A DNA stretch of 64,000 nt, taken from Melieria omissa. Its lineage: Eukaryota; Arthropoda; Insecta; Diptera; Ulidiidae. A program made the position numbers and the translations under genes. The notes under the pieces are model-generated. The model searched no databases and was not told the DNA's origin. It saw only the letters and a program-made list of their open reading frames with translations. Where the stretch lies: assembly GCA_963971225.1 (NCBI GenBank), contig OZ020267.1, positions 103,403,392-103,467,391 of the forward strand, written 5' to 3'. Positions 1,606 through 58,517 of this stretch are shown piece after piece (positions within the stretch are counted from its first letter, which is position 1; every line of letters starts with the position of its first letter).

Positions 1606-4600
1606 ATGGCCTCCACTCGAAAATGGCAACTTTCCGCGCTGTTGTGTGCCCTATTAGTGATGACGATACAAACATCCCAAGGACTGGTAAATATGGCAGC
1701 GAAAATTTTTGTACACGAATTGAATTGTTCAACTTTGCTCCATGAGATTTTAACGCATGGAATGCAATTTCTGATCGAAGAACAACCTTCTTTTTATTTC
1801 CATAAAAACATTGAAGGAAAAAGAGGACTTAGATCACCTTGCAAATATATTGGAAACCGAAAAAGAAATTGGTCCTGAAACGAATGCAGCCGCCGTTGAA
1901 CACAACGCTTGGGTCGCGAAATTGAAAAAATTATTCACAGCCGATAAGTCAGAATTTGATAAAACGATAAAAGAATATGAGGAGTTTGTGAGGGCGCGTG
2001 CTGATCGCCGAAAACTTGTGCGACAATTGCTCGGTTCTCTTTTAAAGTATAAGGAAAATTCGACACTACCTGAAAATTTAAAAGCAACAATCGAGGAGCA
2101 AATTGAACAACTACAAAAACATCTTTTCGATGGAAGTCTTGCAGACATGAATAGAATAACTGATGAAGCTTTTAAAACTGTAGCGGCAATAGAAACATTG
2201 TCAACTACAACGACAGTAATTGCAACAACACTACCCACTACTTCGACGACCCTAGAACCAATAGTCAACGATTTTATACGACAAGCTTCAAATATATTGG
2301 AAAACCAAGTAAAGAAGCCACTGGTGGAACTTTTAAATGATTTGAAAATTAGTGATTTAGAAAATTTGTTAAAAGAGTTAAAAACAGTTGTATCGGATTC
2401 CGTTAGCATGGTTTGTAATTGTCCGGTCCCAGAAACTCCTGGAAGCTTAACTTCTTCCACATCAACTAATGATGCCATTGACAAACTTATAGAAAATCTT
2501 ATACAAGTTATAACTAAAGGAATTGAATTAACTAAAGTCCCCTTGACATCAACTGACTATGACAGGTGCTTGACTTTTTTCGAAATATTTTTGGAGAATA
2601 GCATTTTGAATTTCGCAATTGAGATTCAGAAAAGACGGTGTAATAGTACAACTACAACAACTACACCAACTACAACAACTACACCAACTACGACAACTAC
2701 ACCAACTACAACAACTACGACAACTACACCAACTACGACAACTACACCAACTACGACAACTACCCCAACTACGACAACTACACCAACTACACCAACTACG
2801 ACAACTACACCAACTACAACAACTACACCAACTACAACAACTACACCAACTACGACAACTACACCAACTACGACAACTACACCAACTACGACAACTACAA
2901 CAACTACACCAACTACAACAACTACACCAACTACAACAACTACACCAACTACAACAACTACTCCAACTACAACAACTACACCAACTACAACAACTACAAC
3001 AACTACTCCAACTACAACAACTACACCAACTACGACAACTACACCAACTACGACAACTACACCAACCACGACAACATCATCAACAACAGCAATTAGCCAT
3101 TCACCTACTTCGCCAATAGTAGAAATTTCACTCGATGCATTTTTACGTCTTATGGAGGAGTTTTTCGAAAGAGTGAAAGACAATATGAAGAAAGCCGTGG
3201 AAGACATTTTGAATGCTTTGGAAAATGGGGATTTAGAAAAGTTGCATAAAGATTTACAAGCAGGAGTATTGGATTACATTAACAAGATTTTCGGTTGCAC
3301 CATCCCTCAAACACCTTGGAACAATACTGATTGCTCATCTCCTACTGAATGTTTAGATGATATTATCAATCACTTAGGAAATGAAATAACAAACGGACTG
3401 GCCACAAGTGCCACACCCATATCACAAAAAGAGTTTGACAAGTTCTTGGCTTATCTGAAAATTCTTCTGGACAACATCGCTATGAGGTTTAAACTGGCGA
3501 TGCACGAACAATCAAAGAGAACTACGACGACCATACAAACAACAACAACAGCAATTGCAACTACGTCGCCGCAATATTCATCGCCAGTACAAGGAACTTC
3601 ACTCGATTCATTTTTACAACGTATGGAGGAGTTTTTCGAAAGAGTGAAAGACAATATGAAGAAAGTCGTGAAAGACATTTTGAATGCTTTGGAAAAAGGG
3701 GATTTAGAAAAGTTGTTTAAAGATTTACAAGCAGGAGTATTGGATTACATTAGCAAGATTTTCGGTTGTACCATCCCTCAAACCCCTTGGAACAATACTG
3801 ATTCCTCATCTCCTACTGAATGTTTAGATGATATTATCAATCACTTAGGAAATGAAATAACAAACGGACTGGCCGCAAATGCCACACCCATATCACAAAA
3901 AGAGTTTGACAAGTTCTTGGCTTATCTGAAAATTCTTCTGGACAATATCGCTATGAGGTTTAAACTGGCGATACAGAAAGAAAAAGAGAGAACTACGACG
4001 ACCATACAAACAACAACAACAGCAATTGCAACTATGGCGCCGACAACAAGTGGAGTTCCAATTGATTCATTAAAACAAATTTTGGAAAAGTTTTTCAAAG
4101 CAATGGAAGACGAAATAAAGAAAGCTGCGAACATGGTGGATGCTTCGACAATGGCTGATTTAGAAAAGTTGTTAGACGATTTTAAAGCAACTGTATTGGA
4201 TTTGGTTAACAAATTGTTTCATACCAATATCCACGAAACCCCTAATGGCCCATCTTCTACGATTGCAGACTTTATGAAAAAGCTTATACAAGATATAATT
4301 AATGGACTTACCTCAGCTCACGCACCCATAACATCAGTTGACCTTGACAAATTTTTGACTGAACTGCAAATTCTTCTGGACAATCTTGCTTTGAAAGTGC
4401 AAACTATAATTCAGGATAATATGAATCGGACAACAGCGCAACCAACTAAACCACCTACTACTACTACTACACCTACTACTACTACTACACCTACTACTAC
4501 TACTACTACTACACCTACTACTACTACCAAACGTACTACTACTACCAAACGTACTACTACTACCAAACGTACTACTACCACAAAAAAAACTACAACTAAA

Positions 4601-4705
4601 AAGCCTACAACCGTAATATCAGATTACGATATAGATGCTTTAATTAAAAAAATAATTGAAAATGCAAACTCGATTGGTGGTCAGATTGGACAGATTAGTC
4701 GATAA
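1606..4705 (+). CDS. Secreted Thr-rich mucin, glue-like (two exons)
   Basis: Exon 1 is 1606-1686 and exon 2 is 1817-4705, joined across a 130-bp GT..AG intron in phase 0; 989 aa. Exon 1 is a signal peptide ([20 protein letters not shown], cleavage near TSQG). Exon 2 starts with a charged helical domain of about 130 residues shared with the next gene. Then come four copies of a helical module of about 125 residues (A about 2256-2640, B 3112-3520, C 3587-3997, D 4049-4431). They are separated by Thr-rich linkers, the longest a PTTTTT tract at 2646-3080, with TTTTKR repeats near 4,520-4,580. Modules A-C keep a Cys near a P-x-TP motif; D has lost it. Dense Thr implies heavy O-glycosylation and secretion. 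Larval salivary glue or a gut/salivary mucin are candidate roles (inference); no chitin-binding domain is visible. The continuous antisense frames here are low-complexity shadows. Confidence 0.85.
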
Positions 4706-15300: not shown

Positions 15301-18149
15301 TTAAAGGCAGAACGGTTTTCAAACTGATATATGATCTAAAAAGAAGGTTATTGTATGATGTTGTCCATCTGCTCTCAGCAGCTCAGTACTCAGTTGGTAT
15401 TCCGAATTTCTTTTTAATATATCAACAACCTAGAAAGCAATTGTGTTCCTTTGCTCATTAGCTCTCAGTTATAAAGTCAGAAGAATTCATAGTGAATTTT
15501 GTTCCAATATATAGATTACCTAATATATAGATTACCTACAATTTATAGATTACCTACTATGTAGATTACCTACTATGAAAATGATTATATTTCTTCATTA
15601 TCTTTCAGTCGGACACTCTGGAGAATTTAAACTTAATTTCATTCTGATATATTAACTACTAAGAAAAGCTTTTCTGCCTCCAAACAACTGGCCTTAGTTG
15701 GAGTCTATGCATAATACACATACAATTTTCTTCTATTATGTAAATGAAATTTCCAAGTACAGGGTAGGCCATTTAAAGTGGAAGCATCTGGTAACCCTAT
15801 AACTTTTGACAGAGCTGTCAGATCGACTAATGACATAGCGCGTTGGAAGCGTCATTCCAAGATAATTTATACCATGGAACAGCCAAATGGTCCATTGAAA
15901 TGGCTGAGAACGAAGGTGACTTTTGGCGAAAAATCATCATGTCAGACGAGGCACATTTCACGTTTAATGGAGGCGTAAACAAACAAAATTGTTTGACGAT
16001 TTGACGCCGCCAGACTTTTTTTTATGGGGCTACTTGAAGTCCAAGGTATACACCAACAAGCCAAGGACACTAGCTCAACTCAGAGCCAACATACGCCGCG
16101 AAATAAGAGCCATATCGGACGATACACCACAGTGTTGCGAGTAGTGACAAAAATGCCAAAATGCAACTGTATAAGCGCAAAAATCTGAATACGAGGTTTA
16201 GTTGGAAATACTTCAGTTAGAGAAATCCGAAGTTTTATGAAAAAATATTGGATAACATAGAAGTTATGAGCTCTTGAAGTACGCTCTTCCAGCGTTGAAA
16301 AAAAATTGCGTACAAACAGCAAATTTTTGCTTTGACTTTGATGTTGAATATTTCAAAATAAATTAGGAGCAGGTCTCTAAAAGTTACTATTGTCGTAAGT
16401 TTTATATAATCTAGGTCTGACAAGACCAACATTTTGCTGATTACTCTCACCTATGAGCAGTACTGTTATGATGAAAATTAAGTAAAGAAAGCAAGGGAAT
16501 AAAAAGTGAGTTCAAATTTTAAAAGTGATTTAAAAAAAAACGTTAAATATCACTTTTGAAATTTTTTGATATTTTGTTTTGGCAAGTATGTAGATTATGC
16601 TGTACAATTTTTAGCTGCGCATATTTGCGCCAATGGAAGTTATTGGCATTTTTCGGTGAAGACTTGAGTGCAAATTCGCGATATTTTCACAGTTTGGTTG
16701 AAAGCCAATAGCAATCGGTCAATTAATGCTCTGCTGGTGATGGAAAAATTTTGTTGAAGATAGCTTCGGAAAATCAATTACGATTACCATTATATTCGAA
16801 ATAGAGGGGTTAATAGAGTTTCGACAGTAAACTTTGATTTTTTTCGTACAGAACCAAAAGTTGACAACCTTACTACTTCAATTGTATGGGAGGCGCCCTC
16901 TGGGGGTGAATTTTTTAACTTTTATCAATTTTGTATTTTTGGCATTCAGGAATGTTGACGATTTTTTAATAAATCATTCAAATCGTTTGCCAAATACGAT
17001 GTTTCTTCGCTTACTTGACTACCTTTACAAGTGTGGAGCCAGTTCCATTGAAAATTACTAGTTTTGTTTGGCAGCCACCTTAAGAGTTGCATGTAGCGGT
17101 TAGGTGTGTATAGGAAAAATATGCGAAAGGGAAAATAAATTGGGGTCAGTCTTACATATTGTACGTCTGGGACCAACCTGAGAGCAGCGGGAGCCCACTT
17201 TATAAAAACGATGGTTTTGTATAGAAGCCTCATTAAGGGTTGGAGATAGGTGGTAGGAGTATTCGAAAAAAAGATTCAGGAGGAAAAATTAGTGGAGTCA
17301 TTCTAAGATTTTAACCCTCTAAGAGCAATTTCTAAGCAGCTGTGGAGCACTTTATCGCGATTTTATTTTCAATCACTTTTGAAAAAAGCGCATTTTATCT
17401 ATATACACATTTATAAATAAATGTATATTAAAATACAAATATTATGAATGTATCTTTTATGAACTGAGATAATTTTCATTGTTAATATAAAGTTTTTTCA
17501 AATCCGTTTGTATGGGAGGTAGTCGAAGTTTCGGTCTGATTTCATTGAAATTTTGCACAGTAAGTTCTTTACTCATACAATAATTGTATACCAAATTTCT
17601 TTTATATACGACCACTCCTTCTATTTTGGTCACTCCGCTATATGAACTCGCAACACTGTGTACACTGGCAAAAGTGATGGAAAATGCCGAAAAAAGGGCA
17701 CATTTTGCGGCCAAAGCTAATGGTGGCCATTTACGCGATATCATTTTCAAAAACTAACTAGAAAATTTCTCCTTGGACCAAAATAAATGAATATCGAGAT
17801 GAAAACAAAAAAAAAACATTTTTTTTCCTCTTTTTTTTCAAAAACAAATGCTTCCACTTTAAATGGCTTACCCTGTACATAGTCACATAGACTTTGATGT
17901 CCTGTGGTCTGTGACTGACTTGACTTAATCGATGTGCCTATTCTATTCCGGCTTCTATATGATTTGCTCTCTTTTTGATCTTTTCTAAACAGACGCGTGT
18001 TTGATCCATTCGAAATTTGTTGCACCCTTTGACAGTTAAAATCGCTGCACTCTGACATATTTTTGTTTCAATCGATGCGGCAATTAACGTACCTGTTGCA
18101 GCAGCAGAAGGCCCAACACGATCAGCGACCATTTGAGTCTGAATGCCAT
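12323..18149 (-). CDS. Small secreted helical protein, two exons, signal peptide split by a 5.4-kb intron
   Basis: Exon 1 is 18149-18093 and exon 2 is 12646-12323. Donor CAG/GTACGT and acceptor CCGCAG are both phase 0; 126 aa. The signal peptide is MAFRLKWSLIVLGLLLLQQ plus LAYA from exon 2, with cleavage near AYA-F. The mature part is about 103 residues with two Cys early on (SDCKNSDNE..KEKCSW), then helices without repeats (FKRNLGKYRNFYASLL, VELQELYNTVSMALN, MHRLLFYSIWLVERTTDL). Size, signal peptide, one Cys pair and helices suit a secreted ligand or carrier-like protein, but I do not recognise the family. The intron contains two Transib-like elements and a mariner-like element. Clean splice signals, matching phases and an open frame of normal composition argue that the gene is real. 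Confidence 0.7.
12781..14446. mobile_element. Transib-like non-autonomous transposon with CGTCG duplication
   Basis: The 1,666-bp segment is flanked by CGTCG on both sides (12776-12780, 14447-14451). Ends are inverted repeats of over 30 bp starting CACATTGGGAAAAAACAGGC, differing at one or two positions. Five-bp duplications of type CGNCG and CAC-starting ends are established marks of Transib elements, relatives of RAG1. No transposase-like frame is visible, so it depends on an outside source. It lies in the intron of the minus-strand secreted gene. Confidence 0.75.
14745..15205. repeat. TTCAA / TTTCA microsatellite-like tract
   Basis: Irregular runs of AATTCAATTCA and TTTCATTTCATTTCA fill the segment. 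The 14,447-14,744 stretch before it shows nothing recognisable. Confidence 0.75.
15505..15565. repeat. Short tandem repeat (ATAGATTACCTA)
   Basis: Four adjacent variants of ATAGATTACCTA occur; the surrounding 15,206-15,759 has no other feature. Confidence 0.6.
15760..17875 (+). mobile_element. Tc1/mariner-like element, copy A, interrupted by a Transib-like insertion
   Basis: TA flanks both sides (15758-15759, 17876-17877). Ends are CAGGGTAGGCCATTTAAAGT and its near inverse. Transposase remnants: FWRKIIMSDEAHFTFNGGVN (first catalytic Asp, near 15,920-15,980), then FLWGYLKSKVYTNKPRTLAQ (16,020-16,090), and after the insertion KVMENAEKRAHFAAKANGGH (17,670-17,735) with the last residues. Much of the middle is deleted. 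The frame is split at 16,127 by the 1,533-bp element described separately; removing it gives the layout of copy B (36,675-37,244). Confidence 0.85.
16128..17660. mobile_element. Transib-like element with 12/23 RSS-like ends (nested)
   Basis: The 1,533-bp insertion has 15-bp identical inverted ends CACAGTGTTGCGAGT. TACAC is duplicated on either side (16123-16127 and 17661-17665); copy B of the host element shows a single TACAC at this site. Left end: CACAGTG, 12-bp spacer (16135-16146), ACAAAAATG (16147-16155). Right end read inward: CACAGTG (17660-17654), 23-bp spacer (17653-17631), ACCAAAATA (17630-17622). CACAGTG is the consensus V(D)J signal heptamer and the A-rich blocks resemble its nonamer ACAAAAACC. 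Five-bp duplication and CAC ends fit Transib. The interior has only short frames with no recognisable transposase, so it is probably non-autonomous. Confidence 0.85.
17876..18092. other. Intron remainder
   Basis: Ordinary intron sequence between the mariner-like element and exon 1 of the minus-strand gene. Confidence 0.5.
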
Positions 18150-36674: not shown

Positions 36675-37244
36675 CAGGGTAGGCCATTTAAAGTAGAAGG
36701 CCATTCTTGTTTTTGAAAAAAAGAGGAAAAAAAATGTTTTTTTTTGTTTTCATCTCGATATTCCATTATTTTGGTCCAAGGAGAAATTTTCTAGTTAGTT
36801 TTTGAAAATGATATCGCGTAAATGGCCACCATTAGCTTTGGCCGCAAAATGTGCCCTTTTTTCGGCATTTTCCATCACTTTTGCCAGTGTATCGGCCGAT
36901 ATGGCTCTTATTTCGCGGCGTATGTTGGCTCTGAGTTGAGCTAGTGTCCTTGGCTTGTTGGTGTATACCTTGGACTTCAAGTAGCCCCATAAAAAAAGTC
37001 TGGCGGCGTCAAATCGGGTGATCTCGGTGGCCACTCATAATTGCCGTTTGGTTTTCACAATCGAGAAGTTATTTTTAATGTAAAGCTGAACAATTTCAGC
37101 ACGTTCTTTTGGAGTGTACTGTTCCATGGTATAAATTGTCTTGGAATGATAGCGCTTCCAACGCGCTATGTCATTAGTCGATCTGACAGCTCTGTCAAAA
37201 GTTATAGGGTTACCAGATGCTTCCACTTTCAATGGCCTACCCTG
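36675..37244 (-). mobile_element. Tc1/mariner-like deletion derivative, copy B
   Basis: The 570-bp element has TA on both sides (36673-36674, 37245-37246). Ends are CAGGGTAGGCCATTTAAAGT and an inverse with GAAAGT. On the minus strand MEQYTPKERAEIVQLYIKNN (37,127 down) gives the N-terminal helix. This is joined by deletion to WPPRSPDLTPPDFF then WGYLKSKVYTNKPRTLAQLR and a C-terminus GGHLRDIIFKN at 36,795. The catalytic centre with the first Asp is gone. It is close in sequence to copy A and gives the empty site that dates the Transib insertion there. Confidence 0.88.
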
Positions 37245-56784: not shown

Positions 56785-58517
56785 TTTTTTTTTTTTTTTT
56801 TTTTTTCCCGCGCAGGAGGTGGAAATCTTCGAAAGATACTGGGGCAACCCACCAGCATGCCGGATTCTTACCGACTAAAACCACCCCCTGTTAACCCTTC
56901 ATTCCCTCTGCGGAATTACCGTTAAGTATCGCATCGCAGAGGGGGGTTAAGTTTAGCCTATCTCTCCAGGCTCTGTTGTGCGTTGGCTGCTTCTGGCCCA
57001 TTCTGCTCTTCGCAGTTCCGCTTGCATTAAAGTAATGCCTCCACATATTTCGTCCCAGGCTTCCGCTGATTCCAACATCGCGTCAATTATGTTGCGTGGG
57101 TTCAAGATTTTCTGGGTCGCCGTGTTTAGTCTGGATCGAACGGCCTCGAATCGTGGGCATTCGAATAAAGTGTGCTCAGGGTTTTCTGGCTTGTCGCAGG
57201 ATGGACAATTGGCATTGTCGTCATGGCCGAAGCGTTGTAGGTAGCTTCTGTAGCCACCGTGGCCGGTAAGGAACTGCGTTAATTGAAAGTTTACCTCGCC
57301 ATGCCTTCTACTTGTCCACTTGTCTATGCATGGGATGAGCGTATGTGTCCACCGGCTTTTGCCCGAGCGGTCCCATCGCGCCTGCCACTGCCTCATGGAG
57401 GTTGCTCTTTCGATGCGCGCTCCTTCTTCTTTCGAGAGCGTTCCCTTAAGGACATATATACGCCGCGTCTCGTCCGCCCTGATGTCGATTGGCAACATCC
57501 CGGAGATGACACAAGCTGCTTCGTCTGACACCGTTCTAAAAGCGCTTATCACGCGCAGTGCTGCAAGCCGGTAGACGCGCTCATACTGTCGCTTATACGC
57601 CTTGATTTGCAGGGACTCGGCCCAGATTGGAGCTGCATATAGTAGCGAGGACGATATCACACTGGCAAGTAGCACACGCCTACTGGCTTTTGGGCCCCCA
57701 ATGTTGGGCAGCATCCGTGATAGGCTGGTATAGGTTTTGGACGCTTTACAGCAGGCGTATTCAGCCTGTTTTCGGAAACTGAGCCTGTCATCGATGACCA
57801 CGCCTAAGTACTTTAAGGATCGACTGGAGGTAATGATATTCGCGCCAACCTCGATTCTCATTACCTCGCTTTTCTTTCGGCTGCTCACCAGTACCGCTTC
57901 AGTTTTTTCTTCTGCTAGTTGTAGGCCCACTGACTGAAGCCACGCTCGGACGACCGCTATTGTGGCATTTGATTTCTGCTCCACGTCCGCTAGCTGTTTC
58001 GCTACCACTGTTATCGCGATGTCGTCCGCGAATCCCACCACTACCACGCCTTCTGGAACGGGGAGGTTTAGCACTTCGTTATACATAATGTTCCACAGAA
58101 CTGGTCCGAGGACTGACCCTTGTGGAACACCTGAGGTTACTACATATTGTTTGGGGCCTTCATCGCTGTCATATTGCAGTACTCTGTCCGCAAGGTAGCT
58201 GCTTAAGATAGCCAGCAGGTAGTCCGGTGCTTCCAGTTTTCGGACCGCTCTCAGGATATGGACCCATCCTGCTGAGTTGAACGCATTCTTTACGTCTAGC
58301 GTTATTATTGCACAGTACTTTTTCGTGCCGCCCTTCCATCTCTTCCCCTGGATTGCGTTTTTTGCCGTGTGTACTACCGTAGCGATTGCATCAATCGTCG
58401 ACCGTGCCTTTCGAAAACCGAACTGCCTGTCCGATAGCCCATGCTCTCCTTCGGTGAATGGAGTAAGTCTGTCGAAGATAAGGCGTTCAAGCAGCTTACC
58501 CATTGTGTCCAGCATTA
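56785..58517 (-). mobile_element. 5'-truncated R1-type LINE insertion
   Basis: GGCGCTAACGTTGT is duplicated at 56771-56784 and 58518-58531. A run of about 23 T at 56,784-56,807 is the poly(A) tail of a minus-strand element. Its 3' untranslated part is 56,808-56,952. The 5' end is cut inside the reverse transcriptase gene. A perfect 14-bp duplication and an open frame say it is recent. Confidence 0.92.
56953..58515 (-). CDS. LINE reverse transcriptase, N-terminally truncated (520 codons)
   Basis: The frame is open from the truncation point to the stop. It carries reverse-transcriptase motifs in order: ITLDVKNAFNSA at 71-82, GVPQGSVLGPVLWN at 129-142, VGFADDIAI at 160-168 with the catalytic Asp pair, and KYLGVVIDD at 235-243. 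A C-terminal Cys/His knuckle CPSCDKPENPEHTLFEC is at 437-453. No RNase H follows. This layout fits the R1 clade. The endonuclease and the start of the polymerase are missing, so it is not autonomous. The first visible Met is at the truncation edge and is unlikely to be a real start. Confidence 0.9.
   Translation of the reverse strand: MLDTMGKLLERLIFDRLTPFTEGEHGLSDRQFGFRKARSTIDAIATVVHTAKNAIQGKRWKGGTKKYCAIITLDVKNAFNSAGWVHILRAVRKLEAPDYLLAILSSYLADRVLQYDSDEGPKQYVVTSGVPQGSVLGPVLWNIMYNEVLNLPVPEGVVVVGFADDIAITVVAKQLADVEQKSNATIAVVRAWLQSVGLQLAEEKTEAVLVSSRKKSEVMRIEVGANIITSSRSLKYLGVVIDDRLSFRKQAEYACCKASKTYTSLSRMLPNIGGPKASRRVLLASVISSSLLYAAPIWAESLQIKAYKRQYERVYRLAALRVISAFRTVSDEAACVISGMLPIDIRADETRRIYVLKGTLSKEEGARIERATSMRQWQARWDRSGKSRWTHTLIPCIDKWTSRRHGEVNFQLTQFLTGHGGYRSYLQRFGHDDNANCPSCDKPENPEHTLFECPRFEAVRSRLNTATQKILNPRNIIDAMLESAEAWDEICGGITLMQAELRRAEWARSSQRTTEPGEIG

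Follow-up and report, generated by a model that had tools for sequence, protein, structure and literature searches.

The insertion at positions 16128–17660 of the window, a stretch of 64,000 bp from the genome of the fly Melieria omissa, is a non-autonomous Transib element with genuine 12/23 ends. Taken as a whole, the evidence is very probably best explained by a member of Transib with unequal bipartite ends that is moved in trans by a RAG1-like transposase. The element, its ends and the surrounding host element are laid out as follows.

16128–17660, plus strand: non-autonomous Transib element of 1,533 bp, its interior 3.4% off the 29-copy consensus
16123–16127, plus strand: TACAC, left target-site duplication
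17661–17665, plus strand: TACAC, right target-site duplication
16128–16134, plus strand: CACAGTG, left heptamer
16135–16146, plus strand: left 12-bp spacer, TTGCGAGTAGTG
16147–16155, plus strand: left nonamer-like block, ACAAAAATG, with 97% per-site conservation in 29 paired copies
17654–17660, minus strand: CACAGTG, right heptamer
17631–17653, minus strand: right 23-bp spacer, TTGCGAGTTCATATAGCGGAGTG
17622–17630, minus strand: right nonamer-like block, ACCAAAATA (family consensus ACAAAAATA)
15760–17875, no strand given: Tc1/mariner-like host element including the insert, classed by reading its ends and TA flanks
36675–37244, minus strand: uninterrupted copy of the host element, with the empty site TACAC at 36887–36891

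Counted from each tip, the left end reads CACAGTG, 12 bp and ACAAAAATG and the right end CACAGTG, 23 bp and ACCAAAATA, so that the heptamers and exact spacers given in an earlier note on this DNA are correct base for base; the outermost 15 bp form perfect inverted repeats, and the right block is one base away from the consensus of its family. The same note had described a block AGTGAC(A/C)AAAAT in both ends, set 11 bp deeper in the right one, and this was borne out, with 11 of the 12 bases identical between the ends. Its account of the insertion site, inside a mariner-like element and with TACAC duplicated, also stands: the host is bounded by TA at 15760 and 17875 (its class being assigned by reading), and when the two flanks are aligned to the uninterrupted copy at 36675–37244 the alignments overlap by exactly five bases, the single TACAC. 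The element itself has a maximal open stretch of 109 codons in all frames, and a comparison with 120 Transib proteins (E 1e-3) found no Transib protein similarity in the window or in 68 retrieved loci. Elsewhere in the window, a 520-aa reverse-transcriptase frame (Pfam RVT_1) on the minus strand at 56811–58515 adjoins a match to the Rfam R2 retroelement RNA and is probably an R2-like element, and a 964-aa open frame at 1811–4705 contains several tandem-repeat arrays and yielded two weak Pfam matches only, both below the cut-off.

The ends closely resemble the recombination signals of vertebrates, whose consensus is CACAGTG and ACAAAAACC and whose 12RSS and 23RSS have spacers of exactly 12 and 23 bp and a heptamer identical to that of the window element (PMC8289069, in the part available). 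The left block agrees with the vertebrate nonamer at seven of nine bases, the right block at six and the right family consensus at seven, but the last two bases of the nonamer differ from the blocks in the window, and the window element is a transposon. Among 200,000 random pairs of window stretches, with 12 and 23 accepted in either order, a nonamer match of at least 7/9 and 6/9 at exactly these distances occurred 32 times, which puts the chance of the 12/23 layout at about 1.6e-4. The common block of 12 bases turned up at the offset seen here in 26 of 400,000 random trials; when any shared 12-mer within 45 bp was allowed, with no more than one mismatch, the count was 33 of 4,000.

Copies of this element, here called family C, were searched for in the source genome (490 Mb, 164 contigs). 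The exact 15-bp end has 435 matches, the exact 28-bp left end 119 and the exact 39-bp consensus right end 92, compared with 1, 0 and 0 for the reversed controls. The loci that were read are 32 with a single end and 29 with a pair of exact 15-bp ends, the window copy being one of the pairs; the 60 fetched loci come from contig C1, first among the matches listed, and form a sample selected for intact tips. The 12/23 spacing, on whose presence in other copies the reading of the earlier note depended, is kept in 85 of the 90 exact 15-bp ends, 39 of them with the best block at 12 and 46 with it at 23. Three of the remaining five are ties, two of 12 with 42 and one of 23 with 25; the last two are exceptions, the end in L021 being broken into by other DNA and that in L068 having a spacer of 28. 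Duplications of 5 bp, whose check across copies that note had proposed, likewise recur: the flanks are identical in 17 of the 29 pairs and unequal in 12, and CGNCG accounts for 12 of the 17 identical ones, a pattern outside which the atypical TACAC of the window falls. In their interiors the copies differ from the consensus by 2.5% to 21%, which suggests that family C was active over a long period. One copy (L032, 2,117 bp) holds an extra segment of about 600 bp with inverted-repeat-like edges, and three pairs of exact ends 2,137–2,138 bp apart (C1:112592392, C3:8953460 and C4:4162933) are near it in length; together these may be a propagating subfamily. At C4:50418828-50444272, five right ends of family C on the same strand, spaced 8,470 and 4,233 bp, perhaps reflect a tandemly repeated segment that carries the element.

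Pairing of exact left and right ends of family C located a longer element, L088, of 4,048 bp (C4:3573547-3577594), which has exact 12/23 ends, CGTCG on either side and 89% identity to the family C consensus over 649 bp on the left and 259 bp on the right. Between them lie two separate transposase frames that are 35% and 48% identical to a Transib-group protein of Helicoverpa armigera; since about 1.1 kb between the frames has no match, this copy is decayed. In the alignment to the Helicoverpa protein, the apparent Asp motifs GFDGSSG and TMVDG and a stretch TPIGMLTEEA can be recognised. The coding part replaces the 635-bp middle of family C, and no inward-facing CAC(A/T)(A/G)TG pair was found around it, for which reasons L088 reads as a full-length relative instead of a nested insertion. 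Deletion or replacement of parts of an element of this type would best account for the non-autonomous copies. When a piece of the L088 transposase was searched for, the best 150 of 1,703 candidates were scored; no intact copy was found among them, the nearest match being 66%. Two further long loci were considered and rejected: L024 (3,939 bp, same ends) as an autonomous copy, because its 764-aa frame (L024:2105-4399) looks on reading like a reverse-transcriptase-type insert in a copy of the element, and L089 (5,322 bp) as a full-length relative, because it is the same non-autonomous element split by inserts.

A full-length relative with a RAG1-like core, for which the earlier note had proposed a search, thus exists in L088, and what it carries is a Transib transposase instead of the unrelated hAT or P enzyme that would have pointed elsewhere. 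An alternative in which the insertion is a member of another superfamily (hAT, P, piggyBac) and has its signal-like ends by chance would fit a window copy that encodes nothing recognisable, but it is made exceedingly improbable by the 5-bp duplications, by the presence of a Transib transposase in relatives whose ends are identical and by the low chance expectation of the layout, and an hAT, P or chance origin is ruled out by L088 together with the second 12/23 family described below.

Other Transib types in the genome have symmetric ends. A search with the RAG1 profile (PF12940) matched the genome 40 times and 14 control genomes not at all, and led to a family, A, whose ends differ from those of family C. 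Its transposase frame of 689 aa matches the solved structure 6pqn (E 2.4e-98), described in its entry as a DNA-mediated transposase and which we take to be HzTransib of Helicoverpa zea. A copy read at both ends has CACAGTG-22-GCAAAAGTC and CACAGTG-22-GCAAAATTA with CGGCG on both sides. Copies of a second type, B, are mostly about 61% identical to A, and open frames are present in both. The left and right B-type ends come from different copies: L083 supplies the left end, CACTATG-22-GCAAAAATC, and L080, L081 and L085 supply the right, CACTATG-22-GCAAAAAT(C/A). Most of the B-type ends read adjoin CGNCG on the visible side. Symmetric 22/22 Transibs therefore coexist with 12/23 families in the same genome. 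L088 and Transib-A share a Gly-Arg-Pro motif with basic residues after it, a candidate nonamer-binding part that may resemble the corresponding motif of RAG1, although the pattern used fits only 57 of the 120 fetched proteins. A 58% relative was seen in the tephritid Eurosta solidaginis; a literature search, which was not exhaustive, found no published account of Transib ends in tephritids. An autonomous Transib usually occurs once or in a few copies at most (PMC4411706, in the text available), whereas this one genome holds many Transib families and far more copies, including ones with open frames.

These abundant symmetric types could in principle have mobilised the window element in place of an enzyme of its own kind. 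Both are present with open frames, the A copy lies in CGGCG and most B-type ends adjoin CGNCG, and the heptamer CACAGTG is common to A. Their spacing is different, however, as is the sequence that follows the heptamer (22 bp and GCTCA... in A), and the sole full-length element found with family C ends has another transposase, 44% identical to that of A, so that mobilisation by A or B appears quite improbable.

The 12/23 layout extends beyond family C to a second family, E, in which it is also exact and is accompanied by Transib frames free of stops. Family E has frames of 560 aa, seven of them without a stop inside the match, and is about 60% identical to the L088 transposase over 234 aa. The one copy sampled at both ends reads CACAGTG-12-ACAAAAATC on the left and CGCCGTG-23-ACAAAAATA on the right with a CGCCG flank on each side, and its altered right heptamer led to the prediction that other E copies have CACAGTG there. 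The exact 39-bp right end with CACAGTG has 35 matches and the exact 28-bp left end 47, with none for the controls. In six copies of 3,003–3,009 bp (starting at C1:129690229, C1:151180131, C2:17197886, C3:44028792, C3:55470440 and C4:68659338) exact 12 and 23 ends enclose a stop-free 560-aa frame, the right tip lying 551–556 bp beyond the transposase match. A seventh pair of ends, at C3:61319198 and 3,919 bp in length, has a shorter frame inside.

A BLAST comparison of E and C aligns little beyond two short stretches, one of 34 bp at the left tip and one of 69 bp close to the right tip. The impression that their DNA is alike at the tips only is nevertheless contradicted by comparison in register from the tips, in which similarity of about 50% extends to about 128 bp on the left and 240 bp on the right, shifted registers giving about 30%. 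Relatedness of the two families thus extends through the whole of their terminal regions, and their ends are alike in part by plain common descent. Within these regions the left tip agrees at 25 of 28 bases, the right spacer at 15 of 23 and the right heptamer at 5 of 7 (the sampled E copy being the one with the altered heptamer), and the nonamer-like blocks agree at 8 of 9 bases on the left and 9 of 9 on the right, 17 of 18 overall, against 50% (left) and 68% (right) in the adjoining 40 bp. With the spacings exactly 12 and 23, the ends, and above all the blocks, are better preserved than the sequence around them. This comparison is the best evidence here for what appears to be a functional layout, as judged from two related families.

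Within family C the picture is mixed. Per-site identity in the 29 paired copies is 97% in the left block and 94% in the right, against an interior mean of 88%, and 1.6% and 7.8%, respectively, of interior 9-bp stretches reach these values. When changes are counted on a tree, the left block has 4 compared with an interior mean of 13.8 per 9 bases, and 1.1% of interior stretches have as few, a depletion to be read with the qualification that A and T sites change less anyway. The right block, with 13 changes, is average for the interior, so that the copies of family C alone do not prove constraint on it. Conservation of the blocks above background, the check proposed in the earlier note, thus gives a mixed picture: between the two families the blocks are better preserved than the adjoining DNA, but inside family C a deficit of changes relative to the interior is seen in the left block and not in the right.

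The average right block is also one of the points that would suit a different account, in which the element is a Transib derivative whose 12/23 spacing is an inherited accident, the enzyme reading no more than the heptamer and the few bases next to it and the blocks persisting by common descent. Similarity between E and C that reaches past the ends, the 22/22 ends of two Transib types in the genome and the argument that protostome RAG-like elements depend on the first 15–17 bp (PMC7204232, in the part seen) point the same way. Such an account, however, leaves it unexplained why the E and C blocks are so much more alike than the neighbouring 40 bp while both spacings are exact, and why the layout is retained in copies diverged by up to 21%, and we consider it unlikely.

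Ends of this kind have precedents. Outside V(D)J recombination, 12/23 asymmetry has been reported for some Transibs, with credit to Kapitonov and Jurka (2005), namely Transib5 of D. melanogaster and Transib2, N1, N2 and N3 of Anopheles gambiae, which by their description likewise have an RSS-like heptamer and nonamer with near-perfect spacers of 12 or 23 ± 1 (PMC8355894, in the portion available). Natural 12/23 ends in an insect element, which the earlier note put forward as a living counterpart of the V(D)J signal pair, are therefore not novel; the kind is known and the surprise is limited. One subgroup of Transib includes both symmetric and asymmetric ends (PMC9435367, as far as its available text goes). 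HzTransib is of the same transposase family as Transib-A, and a 5-bp duplication is described for Hztransib (PMC1852546, in part), but its ends are described as symmetric, with little or no similarity to the nonamer (PMC8289069). ProtoRAG of amphioxus, a RAG-like transposon with 5-bp duplications, also has unequal bipartite ends (PMC8289069), but with 27/31 spacing and, in the text available, without an RSS-like nonamer (PMC8355894). The preference of D. melanogaster hopper and transib2 for CCANTGG targets (PMC3276498, in part) differs from the CGNCG of family C.

In the favoured explanation, that of a Transib with bipartite ends moved in trans, the heptamer CACAGTG of each end would be the cutting site and the A-rich nonamer-like block a putative binding part. 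That the heptamer is where cutting takes place and that 5-bp duplications follow is established for Transib and RAG (PMC8289069 and PMC7204232, in the parts available). A RAG1-like Transib transposase supplied in trans would cut at the heptamers, and the element would insert at a staggered break of 5 bp, in most cases at CGNCG; for the window copy, the site used was presumably TACAC in the mariner-like element. We infer that this enzyme is of the C/E type; it would bind the heptamer together with the A-rich block, and the difference of 11 bp, about one helical turn, would keep the block facing the same side of the helix and yet leave the two ends distinguishable, so that unequal ends may be paired preferentially.

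Whether the 12/23 rule originated in transposons or with the vertebrate RAG1/RAG2 complex is debated (PMC8355894, in the part available). It is possible, albeit doubtful, that the C and E transposases prefer 12/23 pairing without RAG2 and that the rule pre-existed in invertebrate transposons with nearly canonical signals and is not an invention of jawed vertebrates. The presence of 22/22 types and exact 12/23 families in one genome offers a matched comparison for the discrimination of 12 from 23 by a RAG1-like transposase, for which hundreds of copies of 12 and 23 ends are natural substrates and six complete E copies of near-equal length supply stop-free frames; Transib is also the presumed source of the vertebrate system of antibody-gene assembly.
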